Source of the DNA: a virus
IMG/VR virus record: IMGVR_UViG_3300023296_000639
Location: 1 to 64,000 of that record
Reading direction: 5' to 3' (one strand)
DNA length: 64,000 nt
The position numbers and the translations under genes are program-made. Position 1 is the stretch's first letter, and every line of letters begins with the position of its first letter. Positions 25,054 through 34,152 of the stretch are shown here, piece after piece. The notes under the pieces are model-generated. The model was given only the letters and a program-made list of their open reading frames with translations, searched no databases and was not told the DNA's origin.

Positions 25054-27568
25054 ATGATAGATGATTTAGTGGTACAGTACAGGGAATCAAATGGTGGAGA
25101 AAGCAACGGACAACACATTACTAGTAGTATCCATGATGGTCGCATTGATCAAATGGTGGAGAAAGCAACGGACAACACATTACTAGTAGTATCCATGATG
25201 GTCGCATTGATGACAATGACAATCCTCGGGATATTATCAACAGCGACAACCCAGACGAAATCCGTAGCGATGGACCCGCCAGAGGGACGATACGAGAGAC
25301 TGGTGGAAGTACGGGAACAGATGGTTCCGAACTCAGTGGCGACACTGGAAATGTTAAACGAGAAACAATCACAGATGGAGAACAAGTAAATGGAAACCCT
25401 AGCACTAGCGGCACCACTAATGACGGTGGCGATACTACAAGCACAGGAAGCACTACCGACGACGACACTGGAACAGATGAAGGTGAAGATGGAGACACAA
25501 CTGGAAACGGTGACGGTGGGGGCGACGATCCATCTTCTGGCGATGGTGATGGTTCTGGCACCAGCAATGGCAGTCTAACTGTAACAGTAACCACACGCAC
25601 ATATAGTGAAACAGAAACAGGCGATCCAGTGCTGGTTGATACTAGCACTGACGCCGTTTCGTCACGTTCTAATGACCTTGAAAACAATCGTGAAGTTGTT
25701 ACAACCGATACAACTACCACTAACACATACGAAACCACTGTAACTACAACACAATACGAAGTTGAAGTAACTACTATTACTGATGCAGATGGTAACGTGG
25801 TAAGCATGACTGAATCTGACCCGACAGTTACTAGCCAAGATTCTACCGTTGACCAAACGAGTGATGCAAGTGTTAACAGTGAAACATCATACGAAGAACC
25901 TACATACGAGACAACGCAGCAAGTCGAAACCGTAACGGTTGTAAGTGATCCTGTTACCGAAACCACGTATGAAGACGTAACTTCACGTACCAACGATTTA
26001 GAAAACAATGAAGAAGATGTAACCGTTACTAGAAATTATACGGACGAAACTTCTGTTGATAAACACGTGAAGTAGAACACGTTGATACTTTCACAACCTT
26101 TGAGAATGCGGCGGTAACGGTTGAATATGTTCAAGACGTTAACGTGGTTGTCGGTGATCCTGTGGTTGATGTTCAATCAGAAACATATACTGAGCGTGAG
26201 ATTGATTACGACAATGACCGTGAAAAACTTTCAACATATGAAGATACCACTACAACCACAACGATAACAACCACTACGACCACAACCACTACGCCTGTGT
26301 ATACTGTGACGTATTCAGATGGAACAACGGAAACAGAATATGGCAATCCTGCCGCTGATGTGGTGAGTAGTGATAACGTGACGGTTGATACAAATGTTGA
26401 AGCAATCAATACAGATTACGAATATCCAGAGATTGTTACCACAAATGATACTGTAACGTCAACTGATGTTACTGACCCTGCTGTTACGACCACGTATGAA
26501 GATGTGACTGTTACTGTTCAAAATGAAGATGGAACGACAACTGAAGTCACCACACGTGAGTTCACTGACACAACATCGGTTACAACGACTGTAACAAATA
26601 CAACGACACCAACAACCACGTTGACCTATTCCGATGGAACAACTGAAACGGTGGTTGGTGATCCGATTATTACTACCGAAACAACAACAGATGAAACATT
26701 CATTGAACGTGATGAAATCATTGACCAAGACACAACACCATTCGCTGATGAAGATGCCTTTACTGGTGTAGAAGATCAAGCTACGCAGTTTTACCTTGAT
26801 GATATTCTTGAAAATGATTATGATCTTGATGGTGATGTATTGGATTTGGTATCGTTTGATCAGCCATCTAACGGCACATTGACATACGATGCTAACGAAC
26901 AACTGTTTACATTTACGCCTGACGAGAATTGGAATGGCGAGACATCATTTGGATATACAATCACTGACGGTGACGATGAAGTAAGTTCAACAGTGAACCT
27001 AACGACTGAAGATGATTTAACTGATGAAGGTGAAGAAAACTACGAAGACCCTAATGGCGGTGGATCGGGACACGGTTCAGGTTCAGGAAGTGGATCAGGG
27101 TCTGGTTCAGGACATGGAAAGGATTCTGGCTCTGGAAAAGATAAAGATACTGGTTCAGGTTCGGGTCATGGAAAGGATTCTGGTTCTGGAAAAGGCAAGG
27201 ATAAAGATGGCAAAGATAACGACGATTCAGGACACGGAAAAGGTGGCTCAAAATCTGGAAGCGGTTCTGGGAAAGGAAGCGGCGAAGGCAAAGATTCGGG
27301 AATGGAAAAGAACGATGGGTCTGCTGAAGGCGATGCGAAGGATTCGCAAAAGAACGATGAAGAAGCCGACTTCGTATTTGGATTAGAACGTGATGGTGAT
27401 GTTCAAAACGATTGGGTGAATGCTGAAGCATCTGATGAAAGCAACGGCAATGGATGGACAGATCATACACCTACAGAAGATGATGATACAATGAACTGGG
27501 GCGATGGCGAAAGTAAAGTTGACCTGCCAGATGATTTACACGACTACGATAATAACCATAATTACTAA
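25054..27568 (+). pseudogene. Large acidic surface protein, frame broken twice
   Basis: The intact reading would be about 820 residues. An acidic linker (SDNPDEIRSDGPARGTIRE, then Gly/Thr/Asp-rich) leads into Thr-rich repeats (DLENN..VT, SDGTTETxxGDP). A tandem-95/cadherin-like domain follows (DEDAFTGVEDQATQFYLDDI, TPDENWNGETSFGYTITDGD), then a Gly-Ser-Lys-rich stretch and an acidic end. Such proteins are adhesins or fibre-like displays. The frame is lost at the 62-bp duplication (25087-25210) and again near 26061. Removing one duplicate restores MIDDLVV...HDGRID joined to DNDNPRD. No signal peptide is visible. Confidence 0.65.
25087..25210 (+). repeat. 62-bp perfect tandem duplication
   Basis: Positions 25087-25148 and 25149-25210 are identical. 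Since 62 is not a multiple of three, two copies shift the frame of the surface-protein gene, while one copy leaves it open. Confidence 0.95.
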
Positions 27569-27602: not shown

Positions 27603-27878
27603 TTAATCATCACACCAACGTATAACACCGTATTGCACTTCGGCAATGGCTTCATCTGGTGTGATATCAAACCATTCACCTGATACCCTAGTGTGACGGT
27701 TTGCTTTGTGTATTTCTGATTCTATAAGGCGAACTTGTTTCTCTGGCACTTCCGCATAATAATGTATTTTTAGTTTAGTGGGATTACCTGTCTGTAGTGC
27801 AGCTAACCTTGTATCAACATCATTGCTGAACCCTATTTTTTGTGGTCCATCCACGCCACCTATTACATATATAAACAT
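27603..27878 (-). CDS. T5orf172/MUG113-type GIY-YIG protein
   Basis: The 91-residue protein contains FIYVIGGVDGPQKIGFSNDV, DTRLAALQTGNPTKL, then LIESEIHKANRHTRVSGEWF and DITPDEAI. This matches the T5orf172 branch of GIY-YIG nucleases (YVIG..KIG, R-x-x-x-L-Q-x-G-N-P, the Glu of the ExxxH helix, GEWF). It may be a nuclease or DNA-binding remnant. Its ATG overlaps the stop of the upstream minus-strand gene. Confidence 0.8.
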   Translation of the reverse strand: MFIYVIGGVDGPQKIGFSNDVDTRLAALQTGNPTKLKIHYYAEVPEKQVRLIESEIHKANRHTRVSGEWFDITPDEAIAEVQYGVIRWCDD

Positions 27879-28955: not shown

Positions 28956-30029
28956 ATGAAAATATCGTTTATAGGGCTTGGTAAACTTGGTTTGCCGTGC
29001 GCTGAAGAAATTGCTAAAAAAGGTCATACTGTTACCGGTTATGATATCCAAGGGTTCAAGTCAGATTTGGTTACTAGTGTGGAATCAATCAAAGATTTAA
29101 TACACCACGACTACAGTAACCGCCCTGATATTTTATTTATCGCAGTTCCAACACCCCACGAAGAATCTTATGATGGTCGATACCCAACTGCGCATTTGCC
29201 ACCAAAAGATTTTGACTACACCATTGTTAAAGATGTGATGAAAGAAGTTAATCGTTATAGTAATCGCCAGACACTGGTGGTCCTTGTATCGACCGTGCTA
29301 CCCGGCACAGTTCGCCGTGAGCTTATTGATGTGATTCCACGTAATCGCTTTGTATACAATCCATACCTAATCGCTATGGGAACAGTTGGATGGGATATGG
29401 TCAATCCAGAAATGGTAATGATTGGTACTAAAGATGGCGATGAAACAACTGAAGCACGAGAGTTGATTGATTTCTATGAAACCGTTATGGATAATGACCC
29501 ACGTTATGTTGTCGGAACATGGGATGAAATGGAATGCGTGAAGATTTTCTACAATACATTCATTTCTACAAAAATCGGTCTTGTGAATATGATTCAAGAC
29601 GTTGCTGAAAAGCAAGGCAATATCAATGTTGATGTAGTTACAGATGCCATTGCGCATTCAACACACCGTATTATGTCACCTATGTATATGAAGGCTGGCA
29701 TGGGCGATGGGGGTGCTTGTGTTAAATCTGACTTTAAAATTAATGTAAATGACGCACATATTGAAATCAGCGAGTTATATAACACATTTAACGACACTGA
29801 ATATTATATCGTAGATTCAATGAATTGGGCAGGAACAAAGAAAGACCAAAAGAAAATTGCCGATGTTACTATGCGAGAATATAGCGGCCCATTGTATACT
29901 TTTACTACCGAATCTGGAAAGAAAATATCAGTTACAAAAGATCATTTAATTCCAGTAGAACGAAAAAGAAAACGAATTATTATAAAGGCAGAAGACATCA
30001 AAGAAACAGATAAATTATTTATTTTATAG
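28956..30029 (+). CDS. Nucleotide-sugar dehydrogenase N-part fused to split-intein N-half
   Basis: Residues 1-254 are the N-part of a UDP-glucose/GDP-mannose dehydrogenase: FIGLGKLGLPCAEEIAKKGH (NAD site), LFIAVPTP, STVLPGTVR, YNPYLIAMG, EMECVKIFYN and KAGMGDGGA. At Cys255 (29718) an intein begins: CVKSDFKINVNDAH (block A), then SGKKISVTKDHLIPV (block B with TxxH), ending at residue 357 with a stop. The dehydrogenase resumes in the gene at 30897. The insertion is directly before the catalytic Cys. AAGGA lies before the ATG. IntN is 103 residues. Confidence 0.9.
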   Translation: MKISFIGLGKLGLPCAEEIAKKGHTVTGYDIQGFKSDLVTSVESIKDLIHHDYSNRPDILFIAVPTPHEESYDGRYPTAHLPPKDFDYTIVKDVMKEVNRYSNRQTLVVLVSTVLPGTVRRELIDVIPRNRFVYNPYLIAMGTVGWDMVNPEMVMIGTKDGDETTEARELIDFYETVMDNDPRYVVGTWDEMECVKIFYNTFISTKIGLVNMIQDVAEKQGNINVDVVTDAIAHSTHRIMSPMYMKAGMGDGGACVKSDFKINVNDAHIEISELYNTFNDTEYYIVDSMNWAGTKKDQKKIADVTMREYSGPLYTFTTESGKKISVTKDHLIPVERKRKRIIIKAEDIKETDKLFIL

Positions 30030-30058
30030 GTGATAACGGTACTTGTTATGTATTTTTG

Positions 30059-30066
30059 TATAAATA
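30059..30066 (+). promoter_or_regulatory. T4-type late octamer before the homing endonuclease
   Basis: TATAAATA at 30059-30066, 18 nt before ATG 30085, with AGGAGA at 30073-30078. The endonuclease can thus be transcribed apart from the dehydrogenase half. Confidence 0.6.
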
Positions 30067-30084
30067 AAGTATAGGAGATACATA

Positions 30085-30900
30085 ATGATAGTAGAAGAAT
30101 TTAGACGAAAATATTCATGGATAGATAAGAAAAAAAACAAGACTGTTTATTGTAGTACAAAGATGATCCGATTGAAATGCGACAAATGCGATCTAATACA
30201 CGAACGAGATTTATCACATTACACCAAGATGACAAAGGTTGATCTGTTTGACAAGGATTATTGTAATAAATGTTGGCGGTCGATATTAAACAACCGTCCG
30301 GAGAAAATAAAAAAGATGTCAGACGCATTAAAAAAGGTGTGGAGTGACCCAAAAAAACGACAGGAAATGTCAATAATGATGAAAAATATTTGTGCTAAAA
30401 CTGGAAGAATGATTGGAGATAATAACCCAATGAAAAATCCAGAAACACAAAAAAAGGTAGGAAAAACCCGTTCAGAACGAATGACAAAAGAAGAAAGAAA
30501 GAAATATTCATTAGGATCAAAAAAAGCATGGGAGGACGGAAAATATATAGGCGCTAATACAACAGGAAAATGTGTTTGGCATGATTACGTCCATTCGAAT
30601 GGTGAATTGTACAAAGTTCAAGGAACATGGGAATTAGCATTTATTAAATGGTTAGATAGAAACAATATGACATTTAGTTGTCATATAGGACGTATCCCTT
30701 ATGTGGATGCAAATGGTAAAGAACGAAATTATTATCCTGATTTTTATGTGAATGAATGGAAGTGCTATATAGATGTTAAATCTGATTACTGGCACAGCAA
30801 AGAACCAACCAAGTTTGATCTACTAAAAGAACAACACCCAAATAATCCAATTAAATTATTATTTAAACGAGATTTAGAAAACTTAGGAATTAAAATATGA
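30085..30900 (+). CDS. Free-standing Vsr-like homing endonuclease
   Basis: The 271-residue basic protein has an N-terminal zinc-finger-like pair (CDKC...CNKC, 33-70) and NUMOD3-like DNA-binding segments (DNNPMKNPETQKKVGKTRSE; SLGSKKAWEDGKY). Its C-terminal nuclease domain shows GTWELAFIKWLDRNN, RNYYPDFYV and CYIDVKS (E, PDF, DVK). This is the Vsr/PD-(D/E)xK-like pattern reported for endonucleases that sit between split-intein gene halves. It presumably cuts intein-free alleles of the dehydrogenase gene. Its stop overlaps the next start by ATGA. Confidence 0.85.
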   Translation: MIVEEFRRKYSWIDKKKNKTVYCSTKMIRLKCDKCDLIHERDLSHYTKMTKVDLFDKDYCNKCWRSILNNRPEKIKKMSDALKKVWSDPKKRQEMSIMMKNICAKTGRMIGDNNPMKNPETQKKVGKTRSERMTKEERKKYSLGSKKAWEDGKYIGANTTGKCVWHDYVHSNGELYKVQGTWELAFIKWLDRNNMTFSCHIGRIPYVDANGKERNYYPDFYVNEWKCYIDVKSDYWHSKEPTKFDLLKEQHPNNPIKLLFKRDLENLGIKI

Positions 30901-31418
30901 CAACTGAACGAATTACAAATATTGAAATAACTGAATACAATGGTGATGTTTACAATTTAGAAGTGGAACCCAATCATGAAAATAAAGATGATCAATTTTA
31001 TATGTGTGCTGACACTGGAATCGTAATTCATAATTGTCACCCACGTGACAACATTGCTTTACGTTGGATGGCAAAAGACCTAAATCTTGGCTACGATTTG
31101 TTTGATGCGGTAATGAATGCCCGTGAACAACAAGCCAAGAATATGGCAGACAAACTAGTTAGTTACAATCTACCTGTTGTGATTATGGGCAAAAGTTATA
31201 AGCCCGGTGTGGATTACGAAGATGGGTCAAGTTCTATTCTTGTTGGATCATATATTGATGATGTGCAATATGATGTAATCCTTGACGAACCTGCTGTATA
31301 TCTAATGGCACATCCGCAAGATACGTTTAACGAAGGCGCAGAAGATTCTGTGGTTGTTGACCCTTGGCGTCAAGTACGTTCACAACATAAGACATATTGG
31401 TATGGAAATACTAGATGA
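30897..31418 (+). CDS. Split-intein C-half fused to dehydrogenase C-part
   Basis: Residues 1-46 are an intein C-half: NIEITEYNGDVYNLEVEPNH (block F region) and DTGIVIHN (block G), ending in the usual His-Asn before Cys47 (31035). From Cys47 the dehydrogenase continues: CHPRDNIALRWMAKDLNLGY, VIMGKSYKPGVDYEDGSSS, ending at residue 173. Cys47 is both the +1 splice nucleophile and the catalytic thiol of the dehydrogenase motif GGACHPRD. Trans-splicing would give a 381-residue enzyme, close to family length. Confidence 0.9.
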   Translation: MTTERITNIEITEYNGDVYNLEVEPNHENKDDQFYMCADTGIVIHNCHPRDNIALRWMAKDLNLGYDLFDAVMNAREQQAKNMADKLVSYNLPVVIMGKSYKPGVDYEDGSSSILVGSYIDDVQYDVILDEPAVYLMAHPQDTFNEGAEDSVVVDPWRQVRSQHKTYWYGNTR

Positions 31419-31612
31419 ATAAGGATGAGTTTTGGCGAGCATTGACAATCCCGCCAAATGATCAACGAACATGTTCGAACTGTATTAAGAAGAATGGTCT
31501 TGAATGCTTTATTCAAGATTTGGACATGGCGCATTGGCCAGAAAACAAGTATTGTTCACGTGGATTGCATCTTGACAATAGCGTTGATAAATGGGAATGG
31601 AATGGCGAATGA
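31415..31612 (+). CDS. FW-tag small Cys protein
   Basis: The 65-residue protein starts MNKDEFWRALTIPPNDQRTC, with CSNCIKK, ECFIQ and YCSRG and an end VDKWEWNGE. Its start overlaps the dehydrogenase stop and its WEWNGE codons contain the start of the next gene, an example of the cassette sitting between two unrelated genes. Confidence 0.8.
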   Translation: MNKDEFWRALTIPPNDQRTCSNCIKKNGLECFIQDLDMAHWPENKYCSRGLHLDNSVDKWEWNGE

Positions 31613-32355
31613 AACTAATAGCTGGTGGATGTAGCCTGATACAAGGCGCAGAGTTACAAAATACTGATAATACGTGGACTGGAAATATTGCCGAACGCCG
31701 TGGATTTGAGTATATCAACGAAGGCTATCCCGGCGCAGGTAACAGATATATCGCCAAACGCATTATTGATAGGGTATCAACGATAGACGACAATGTTGCG
31801 GTAATAGTTCAATGGTCATATCTTTCACGCTATGATTACATTTGTTCATTTGATACTAAAGAGCAGAATAGTCCTTGGTATACCCTAACACCCGCACACC
31901 TAAACTTGTCTGATAAAACGGTAGCATCGTGCTTTGGCGATGAGTATGTTCAACGCATCAAAAACTTCGGCACCGACAAGTGGGCAGAAGTTGAATATCG
32001 TATGCTTGATAGTATGAATGAACTTGACAACACACTTACACAAATCCTATTGCTACAGGAATATTTGAATAATAGAAACATCCCGTATATGTTTTCTTGT
32101 GCTGAACGATGGAACGATTTCAAACATTGGAATACATTAAAGAATAATGGTCCATCTATTTGTAGAAGTCTATACGACAGCATTGACTGGAATAAGTTTA
32201 AATGGTTTCCGCACGATTATGGCGACACAGGATTTGTATATTGGGCTAATGCACACAACTTTGAAAAGGGGCAATACGGACACCCTCTTGAAGAAGCACA
32301 TGTTGCCGCTGCTGACATTATGGAACCACATTTTATGGAGATTCTAAATGAGTAA
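31609..32355 (+). CDS. SGNH-hydrolase-like protein
   Basis: The 248-residue protein starts MKLIAGGCSLIQGAELQNTD, where the GGCSLxxG motif is the usual nucleophile block (G-x-S) of SGNH-like phage proteins. EGYPGAGNRYIA (GxxN oxyanion block), VIVQWSYLSRYD and a C-terminal YGHPLEEAHVAAAD with candidate catalytic His follow. From memory a related family in T4-like phages is annotated DUF6071. A likely role is acyl or ester hydrolysis on a glycan. Confidence 0.65.
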   Translation: MKLIAGGCSLIQGAELQNTDNTWTGNIAERRGFEYINEGYPGAGNRYIAKRIIDRVSTIDDNVAVIVQWSYLSRYDYICSFDTKEQNSPWYTLTPAHLNLSDKTVASCFGDEYVQRIKNFGTDKWAEVEYRMLDSMNELDNTLTQILLLQEYLNNRNIPYMFSCAERWNDFKHWNTLKNNGPSICRSLYDSIDWNKFKWFPHDYGDTGFVYWANAHNFEKGQYGHPLEEAHVAAADIMEPHFMEILNE

Positions 32356-32572
32356 GGAAAAGTTCTGGAAGTTATTGGCTGGTCCAACTGAAAAGTCTTG
32401 TATGAACTGTCAGTTTAAAGGCGATTATGTTACTGTTAAATGCAGTATTGATGAAAGCCCGTTTTGGGGAAATGGCAAATGGCTATGCTATAACAGAGAT
32501 GTATTGGACCACACTACATATGAACTTATTCATTATAAACAACAATGGGAATGGGATGGTGAAAGAGAATGA
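32348..32572 (+). CDS. FW-tag small Cys protein
   Basis: The 74-residue protein starts MSKEKFWKLLAGPTEKSCMNC, with KCSID and WLCYN and an end YKQQWEWDGERE. It overlaps the genes on both sides by 4-8 nt. Confidence 0.8.
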   Translation: MSKEKFWKLLAGPTEKSCMNCQFKGDYVTVKCSIDESPFWGNGKWLCYNRDVLDHTTYELIHYKQQWEWDGERE

Positions 32573-33183
32573 TTATAGAAGATTATGAAAACCCGTTTGA
32601 CGCATTATTAGATTTTGAGGATATGCTGTCGGAATATACTGGCGCACCTTATGTGGTGTTAACAGATTGTTGCACACACGCATTGGAACTGTGCTTACGG
32701 CACGAATATACAATGTGGGATGTCACATTGCCAGCCCGAACATATCTAAGTATTCCGATGATGTTAAAAAAGATTAACAAGAACTATTTCTTTAAGGATA
32801 TTGATTGGGAAGAAGATGGCGAATACGATGTCATTCCAAGTGTATACGATTCGGCAAGATTATTTGAAGAAGGAATGTTCCGTCCACGTGAAAAGCAATG
32901 CCTTAGTTTTGGGCACGGAAAACCATTGCAAATCGGCGCAGGTGGTGCTATACTATTAGATAACGCTGACGACTACGCTACCTTAAAACGTATGGCATAT
33001 GATGGTCGTAACATTCATACCTATGATAAATGGGCTGACCAAAATGTATTTGATATTGGTTATCATTATCATATGCGTCCTGAATGGGCAATAAAAGGTA
33101 TGCGGATGTTGGATGATGGTGATATCAAATCCCCGCCGCCATTCAACTATCCTGATTTGCGAGATATAACTATCAATGGATGA
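32569..33183 (+). CDS. Short DegT/StrS-type sugar aminotransferase
   Basis: The 204-residue protein matches the PLP fold of DegT/DnrJ/EryC1: YVVLTDCCTHALELCLR, TLPARTYLSIPMMLKK, PSVYDSARLFEEGMF (Asp for the ring nitrogen) and CLSFGHGKPLQIGAGGAILL with the Schiff-base Lys. Usual length is about 370, and the C-terminal domain is missing, so the protein may be a half-size phage version. It fits a nucleotide-sugar pathway with the neighbouring dehydrogenase. Confidence 0.8.
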   Translation: MIIEDYENPFDALLDFEDMLSEYTGAPYVVLTDCCTHALELCLRHEYTMWDVTLPARTYLSIPMMLKKINKNYFFKDIDWEEDGEYDVIPSVYDSARLFEEGMFRPREKQCLSFGHGKPLQIGAGGAILLDNADDYATLKRMAYDGRNIHTYDKWADQNVFDIGYHYHMRPEWAIKGMRMLDDGDIKSPPPFNYPDLRDITING

Positions 33184-33412
33184 CAGTAAACAAGAGTTTT
33201 GGAATGCGCTAACCCAGCCAACAAAAAGAACGTGTGATAACTGTTTCTTTAACGAAGCTACGGTTAGCACCACATCGTGTTCATTGCGGGCTGGATTAAT
33301 GTGCGATGTTCATAATGATTATATTTACTCATCGGTTGCAAACACAAGTAGCAGACCTTTTAACACGTATAAAGCAAAAAGATTATGGGAATGGGATAGA
33401 AAAAATGCATAA
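33176..33412 (+). CDS. FW-tag small Cys protein
   Basis: The 78-residue protein starts MDDSKQEFWNALTQPTKRTC, with CDNCFFN, SCSLR and MCDVH and an end KRLWEWDRKNA. The KQEFW tag and four to five cysteines are kept. Coupled to both neighbours. Confidence 0.8.
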   Translation: MDDSKQEFWNALTQPTKRTCDNCFFNEATVSTTSCSLRAGLMCDVHNDYIYSSVANTSSRPFNTYKAKRLWEWDRKNA

Positions 33413-33912: not shown

Positions 33913-34152
33913 ATGAATAAAGAAAAGTTTTGGAAAGCATTGCGTGAACCAACACACCATAACTGCCGTAACTGTAAACATCTTGATCATTTTGCGAATA
34001 TGGGTATGGGAAATTACTCTGTTGTGTGTGACACCAAATCTGAAAATGGTCGTATGCTAGACCCTGATTGTGCTAGCATTTCACACCCAATCAGTGGAGC
34101 CACCCGAGCATTATATAAAGATAATTGGGAATGGAATGGAAAAGATGAATAA
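33913..34152 (+). CDS. FW-tag small Cys protein
   Basis: The 79-residue protein starts MNKEKFWKALREPTHHNCRNC, with VVCDT and DCASIS and an end KDNWEWNGKDE. It is a canonical member with four cysteines. Coupled downstream to 34145. Confidence 0.8.
   Translation: MNKEKFWKALREPTHHNCRNCKHLDHFANMGMGNYSVVCDTKSENGRMLDPDCASISHPISGATRALYKDNWEWNGKDE

Follow-up and report, generated by a model that had tools for sequence, protein, structure and literature searches.

In a 64,000-nucleotide stretch of viral DNA (positions 1 to 64,000 of IMG/VR virus record IMGVR_UViG_3300023296_000639, a record of 141,891 bases; the whole stretch is called the window here), a gene for a nucleotide-sugar dehydrogenase is very probably interrupted by a composite mobile element, in which the two halves of a split intein flank a separate gene for a homing-type endonuclease of the PD-(D/E)XK kind, directly before the codon for the catalytic cysteine. 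The intein N-half and C-half are abbreviated IN and IC, and the endonuclease gene HE. L-numbers such as L044 denote the viral contig loci that were compared; these are contigs, near-copies included, and not independent lineages. An earlier note, made from the sequence of this DNA alone, had proposed the same core reading, a split intein with a free-standing homing-type endonuclease between its halves, and intein profiles, an alignment with a solved dehydrogenase and the 24 split junctions that were printed bear it out.

The locus consists of three open reading frames (ORFs) on the plus strand, at 28956-30029 (357 aa), 30085-30900 (271 aa) and 30897-31418 (173 aa). The first encodes a dehydrogenase N-extein of 254 residues that ends in GDGGA (28956..29717; PF03721 2.8e-20, PF00984 3.3e-13, and phrog_9148, UDP-glucose dehydrogenase, 2.5e-71), followed by the 103 residues of IN, which begin with Cys1 and include TxxH in block B (29718..30026; TIGR01445 7.3e-10); the stop codon is at 30027-30029. 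The HE ORF (30085..30900) starts 55 bases past this stop and encodes a homing-type endonuclease of 271 residues with a CxxC...CxxC segment, a helical middle and a C-terminal PD-(D/E)XK domain, the catalytic part of which is placed by a predicted model at residues ~160-270 (30562..30894). The third ORF begins one base ahead of the HE stop codon, in the overlap ATGA, and so IC has its own ATG overlapping that stop; the 46 residues of IC end in His-Asn (30897..31034; TIGR01443) and are followed by a dehydrogenase C-extein of 127 residues (31035..31418; phrog_9148 9e-22), the first residue of which is the catalytic Cys (31035-31037). Together the dehydrogenase pieces comprise 381 residues (254 + 127). 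The same layout with an identical endonuclease is present in three contigs (L082-L084) and also recurs in diverged phages, and a relative is available as both a filled and an empty allele that can be compared, so the arrangement is neither a product of chance nor the assembly error for which the earlier note had allowed; its three-gene layout, with a free-standing endonuclease ORF between intein halves as in so-called fractured genes, is found in the window and in relatives alike.

Both halves are recognized by intein profiles. IN scores 39.7 bits against a cut-off of 24.5 for NCBIfam intein_Nterm (TIGR01445), and IC narrowly passes intein_Cterm (TIGR01443), with 16.7 bits against 15.6; with Pfam Intein_splicing, IN is slightly under the cut-off (35.5 against 35.8 bits) and IC gives a weak 15.9. 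A profile built from 14 N-halves finds the inteins KlbA (2jmz) and NrdJ-1 (8ubs) in the PDB, and in the 14 sequences C1 and T73 are invariant and H76 is nearly so. In the 24 of 34 full split loci that were printed, IN starts with a Cys after G[GA]x and IC ends with His-Asn, after which comes a Cys, and the split junction in these diverged phages follows the pattern G[GA]x|C[HFL][PS][RK]D. The N junction of L223, L224, L225 and L233 was located with that same pattern and is therefore not independent. These features, in agreement with the claim of two intein halves of 103 and 46 residues with a Cys start and a His-Asn end, place the pair among the naturally split inteins, which would splice in trans.

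The host gene encodes the NAD-binding and central domains of the dehydrogenase family, with the catalytic Cys in GGxC[FLH]P[KR]D. In the uninterrupted allele L048 the site reads GDGGG|CHPRD and aligns with GFGGSCFPKD of the solved UDP-glucose dehydrogenase 3vtf, and the split therefore lies directly before the catalytic Cys. The profiles, this alignment and the printed junctions thus uphold the split point GDGGA|CHPRD, at which the +1 splice residue is also the catalytic Cys. Uninterrupted alleles were sought by a scan of viral contigs with the dehydrogenase N-part, and among the best 80 of the 596 relatives, which were examined, 78 are uninterrupted at the site (77 with zero gap, plus L019, the contig of which ends just past the motif). 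The two element carriers among these 80, L043 and L044, share the same IN/HE/IC element of 1305 bp; scans with the endonuclease added L082-L084 and further element carriers. A separate observation concerns L087 (1824-3956), in which the dehydrogenase N-ORF holds a second intein, this one contiguous and placed by eye at FYN|TFIS; to yield the enzyme, this gene would depend on a cis-splicing event as well as a trans-splicing one.

Alleles that are empty, filled and donor-like can be compared directly. Upstream of the site, 1977 of 1979 bases are identical between the empty L048 and the filled L044, the differences being at -1560 and -1, and the first 1150 downstream bases contain six differences (+3, +6, +9, +10, +12 and +15). 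Seven of these eight differences are no more than 15 bp from the insertion, and the protein is unchanged by them. L043 differs from L048 additionally at +25, +27, +28 and +396. The element of L094 is identical to that of L044 at 1297 of 1300 positions, with 5 gapped columns, and the flanks of the same two loci at 547 of 700 (78%) and 310 of 450 (69%). Downstream of the site, the donor-type tract, that of L094, extends to +15 in L044 and to +28 in L043. L043 and L044 have G at base -1, where L094 and L048 have C, and we offer no explanation for it. Comparison of genomes thus shows both movement between alleles and co-conversion of the flank, the marks by which we judged homing: the element has been mobile recently, passing in one piece between divergent alleles and bringing a short stretch of converted flank with it; the direction would be a gain in the L044 lineage. 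Over larger distances the window and L085 share 45% identity in the N-extein, 52% in IN, 57% in HE and 69% in IC, and the window and L093 share 69%, 44%, 46% and 56%, respectively; the histories of element and host gene disagree across lineages. The sole other large difference seen between L048 and L043/L044 is a gapped stretch of ~0.24 kb, ~1.15 kb downstream of the site.

The HE product belongs with the PD-(D/E)XK nucleases by its conserved residues: E183, P218-D219, D230 and K232, which form the set E...PDF...D-x-K, are invariant in 24 relatives. The first of the CxxC pairs within residues 32-63 is nearly invariant in the same 24, and C32, C35, C60 and C63 are invariant in 4 sequences. By sequence profile the closest match is T7 endonuclease I (4.2e-6). 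A model of the nuclease domain (mean pLDDT 88.3, pTM 0.48) was compared by VIA-align and gave Z 9.2 with TnsA, 7.5 with a mitoribosomal protein, and 6.7 and 6.0 with I-Bth0305I and Vsr, the last two being values below 8 that may reflect merely a common arrangement. The earlier note had called the endonuclease Vsr-like with NUMOD3-like segments; as a family assignment by sequence this fails, there being no Pfam match to either family, although the predicted fold resembles I-Bth0305I and Vsr, and TnsA more closely. By eye, segments of the type GDNNPMKxPExRxKVS are also present in further nuclease genes, at L119 and L121, which is consistent with a shared DNA-binding module, though Pfam finds no NUMOD3. 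Searches with HE of 50,697 named phage records gave matches in 13 records, none with 80% coverage of the query, and in 17 records, 2 of them with such coverage; all were below 60% identity. In a cellular genome collection 74 stretches match two short HE patterns and none encodes a relative, although distant relatives may escape such patterns.

A wider scan with the endonuclease yielded 76 loci. At a profile threshold of E < 1e-30, all 56 loci retained sit at a dehydrogenase gene, 36 of them in a split intein and 20 as a free-standing gene just past the 3' end of a dehydrogenase gene that is uninterrupted. The split intein loci comprise 34 with the full IN/HE/IC and 2 ended by the end of the contig (HE and IC only). 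At L237 and L260 the contig begins within the dehydrogenase gene, and at L109 the endonuclease is itself interrupted.

The free-standing form is associated with a changed target. L114, which has the free-standing gene, and L132, which does not, are identical at 57-60 of 60 bases in nearly all 60-base segments outside one tract; that tract, with its start 28 bp ahead of the codon for the Cys, contains a diverged 3' end of the dehydrogenase gene and the inserted HE gene. Identity between the two falls from 0.976 to 0.628 across the Cys codon, and the largest drop among pairs that lack the gene is 0.179. The canonical GGxC[FL]PKD is present at none of the 20 loci with a free-standing HE and at 47 of 69 uninterrupted loci without one (Fisher 1.3e-8, ignoring kinship), the 69 being 80 loci less 4 that are split, 6 that have an endonuclease gene and L197, at which the site was not read. 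The free-standing HE thus goes with an altered site and the split intein with an interrupted one, and either would prevent self-cutting.

An HE tree was built from 47 of the 56 loci (44 different rows). On it the label of split or free-standing needs 4 changes, of which supported branches force 3, a result that depends on L109, a row assembled from two pieces, and on L237 and L255, which have long branches. In both this tree and one reduced to 41 rows by removal of these three, the split loci L240 and L244 cluster with free-standing ones. The endonuclease may have alternated repeatedly between the free and the embedded form; this is not established, because the reduced tree leaves a single forced change.

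Other states occur at the same codon. A search of viral sequences by exact junction patterns found 71 stretches, many on contigs already in the set: 44 are split with this HE or part of it, 14 are split without an HE match (two of them beginning just ahead of IC), 9 are contiguous and 4 have no profile match. The mini-intein of L471 is contiguous and is recognized by the same N-half and C-half profiles, L442, L450 and L459 have a split intein with no space for an endonuclease, and L405 and L412 retain HE remnants. The insert of L438 encodes a different homing endonuclease (phrog_314, 3e-11 from the full start; GIY-YIG by eye), for which a scan from four codons past the start gave no Pfam match. 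Six loci (L438, L439, L441, L460, L463 and L466) have ~0.9 kb between the dehydrogenase intein halves with no match to the present HE. In the cellular collection, 86 of the 120 matches listed for the pattern HN|CFPKD are classed as contiguous inteins at the same residue, 29 have no match and 5 are other. Among these listed matches 84 contiguous inteins could be sized, with a median of 470 aa and 8 of at most 220 aa; the one that was scanned, L281, has LAGLIDADG domains, and by record titles some are from haloarchaea. The earlier note knew of no UDP-glucose/GDP-mannose dehydrogenase case; inteins in this enzyme family do exist in contiguous form, namely these cellular inteins and the haloarchaeal UDP-glucose 6-dehydrogenase intein allele ('udp') listed in PMC4071816. 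In the literature covered, which included few subscription papers, neither 'split intein' together with 'UDP-glucose dehydrogenase' nor intein together with nucleotide sugar dehydrogenase and phage was found.

Splicing and DNA cleavage at this locus may be envisaged as follows. The two precursors would come together and splice in trans. The active-site Cys would act as the +1 nucleophile during splicing and afterwards as the nucleophile of the enzyme, and the enzyme should stay inactive until splicing is exact, because the +1 residue is its own nucleophile. The endonuclease would cleave empty alleles close to the Cys codon, and repair of the break would copy the intein and the endonuclease gene into the cut allele. 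The composite plausibly arose when a free-standing endonuclease gene and a split intein were paired at a target common to both, that is, by collaborative homing for an intein; an origin by pairing is made plausible by the presence of the same HE family, free-standing, beside uninterrupted genes with altered codons. We also entertain, with somewhat less than even confidence, a broader history in which a single HE lineage targets the codon of the catalytic Cys in phage nucleotide-sugar dehydrogenase genes. In it, HE has alternated on more than one occasion between a place beside the gene, where a recoded active site gives protection, and a place between the halves of a split intein, where the insertion does so, the composite having been assembled by collaborative homing and all intermediate states surviving.

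Several points weigh against these interpretations. IC by itself scarcely exceeds its profile cut-off, and the intein tree is poorly resolved and too weak to date the association of HE with the intein. The gain in the L044 lineage is a direction that we only infer. Apart from the limit already given for Z scores below 8, a Foldseek search of the HE model against the PDB gave no match at E<=0.001. The 20 weaker or other HE loci of the wider scan, with the ORFs around four of them inspected, had no dehydrogenase match, and weaker relatives of the nuclease therefore live elsewhere. L114/L132 is the only clean pair found with and without the gene; the remaining pairs, separated by greater distances, give a less distinct picture and fall within background (for example L133/L136, 0.816 to 0.713). 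The altered motif is also present in 22 of the 69 alleles that have no HE gene nearby. Without L109, L237 and L255, the 41-row tree needs 2 changes, of which 1 is forced.

The interval between the first two ORFs raises the alternative that the split is mainly regulatory, with HE and IC expressed from a late promoter behind a sequestered ribosome-binding site and the enzyme assembled only late. This is unlikely as the chief explanation, and it could hold alongside the composite mobile element. A predicted RNA hairpin at 30043..30088 (plus strand) pairs over the HE ribosome-binding site and start codon, and TATAAATA, which we take to be a T4-type late promoter word, is a weak candidate within its 5' arm and loop (30059..30066, plus strand). 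In shuffle tests the window hairpin had a z of -2.43 over 61 nt, with 4 of 200 shuffles as stable, and with more flank (76 nt) a z of only -1.59, with 14 of 200 as stable. L090 has TATAAATA and a similar hairpin (0 of 200 shuffles as stable) and L092 has GATAAATA in a weaker one (13 of 200), but in the gaps examined neither hairpin nor promoter is present in L085, L087 or L094. TATAAATA occurs in 2 of 16 distinct gaps and is not enriched in the window, where 10 were found and 6.9 expected (18 of 100 shuffles reach 10). The overlap of the C-half start with the HE stop also speaks for this alternative, and the window arrangement is as in T4 intron endonucleases, for which the accessible part of PMC2988022 describes a late promoter within a hairpin over the ribosome-binding site. 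Control of HE by a late promoter and hairpin is accordingly put forward here as a hypothesis.

Considerably less probable is a second alternative, in which the intein is real and the endonuclease is an unrelated cargo nuclease, such as a resolvase, that does not home here. It would account for the best HE sequence matches, which are T7 endonuclease I and phage families of resolvase or endonuclease type, but not for the location of 56 of 56 HE relatives above threshold in or just downstream of a dehydrogenase gene, nor for the exchange tracts, which in each of two comparisons (L114/L132, and L094 with L043/L044) start from the site of the intein. Least probable of all is that the divided gene is an assembly artefact or a pseudogene for an inactive dehydrogenase, with a decayed intein and the enzyme lost: the enzyme is spread over two ORFs and the endonuclease is broken in some relatives (L405, L412), but the splice residues and enzyme motif are retained in the 24 printed split loci, the same arrangement is found in three other contigs and in diverged ones, and L044 has a near-identical uninterrupted counterpart in L048.

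Some neighbouring features were recorded in their own right. Downstream in the window, four small ORFs (31415-31612, 32348-32572, 33176-33412 and 33913-34152) are apparent dispersed paralogues that alternate with larger genes; as judged by eye, they have FW[RKN][AL]L and CxNC close to the N terminus and WEW close to the C terminus. Upstream, a 91-aa ORF on the minus strand (27603-27878) may, judged by eye, contain a small domain of GIY-YIG/T5orf172 type. A 474-aa ORF (26144-27568) combines stretches rich in Thr with a segment that looks cadherin-like by eye and ends in a long low-complexity tail of G/S/K/D. Outside the window, a DNA polymerase gene of the same virus record holds another split intein (G000:C1:103037-104680; L128:2038-3681), by eye at YGDTD|S; only 108 bases separate its ORFs, which leaves no endonuclease gene there. 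PMC11923092 describes Aes123 PolB1, a polymerase split intein that lacks cysteine.

The joining of endonuclease genes to splicing elements is an open question. The origin of composite homing elements is discussed in the accessible parts of PMC6083498, PMC2988022, PMC3943268 and PMC10448857, and section 21 of the last states that the origin of collaborative homing arrangements is not clear; the free-standing sister form described here bears on how composite homing elements arise. Because free, embedded, empty, donor-recipient-product, intein-only and decayed forms are found at one codon, sequences already available allow a test of every step. They are in addition a source of new natural split inteins that could be used in protein ligation.

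The composite element can be set beside several known systems. Dassa et al. (2009) reportedly described 'fractured genes' in phage-like environmental DNA, in which a free-standing homing endonuclease lies between split intein halves. Here, in contrast, the host gene is a nucleotide-sugar dehydrogenase and HE has an invariant D-x-K where EDxHD would have His, and empty, donor and product alleles are available together with free-standing sisters. I-Bth0305I (EDxHD, 3r3p) may have a similar catalytic fold, with Z 6.7 and an rmsd of 3.1 over 80 residues, and TnsA scores higher; the D230-x-K232 that is invariant in 24 HE relatives would have K at the place of the His in the EDxHD signature. The haloarchaeal 'udp' intein allele of PMC4071816 is in the same enzyme family, and the cellular contiguous inteins found here occupy the same residue before the catalytic Cys but are contiguous, whereas the window intein is split. 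In collaborative homing as described for F-CphI and psbA (accessible parts of PMC6083498, PMC2988022 and PMC10448857), a free-standing endonuclease beside the gene targets the site of a splicing element, and the insertion protects the donor. There the splicing element is a group I intron and cleavage has been demonstrated; here it is an intein, cleavage is a prediction from genomes, and one endonuclease family occurs both free-standing and embedded at one site.

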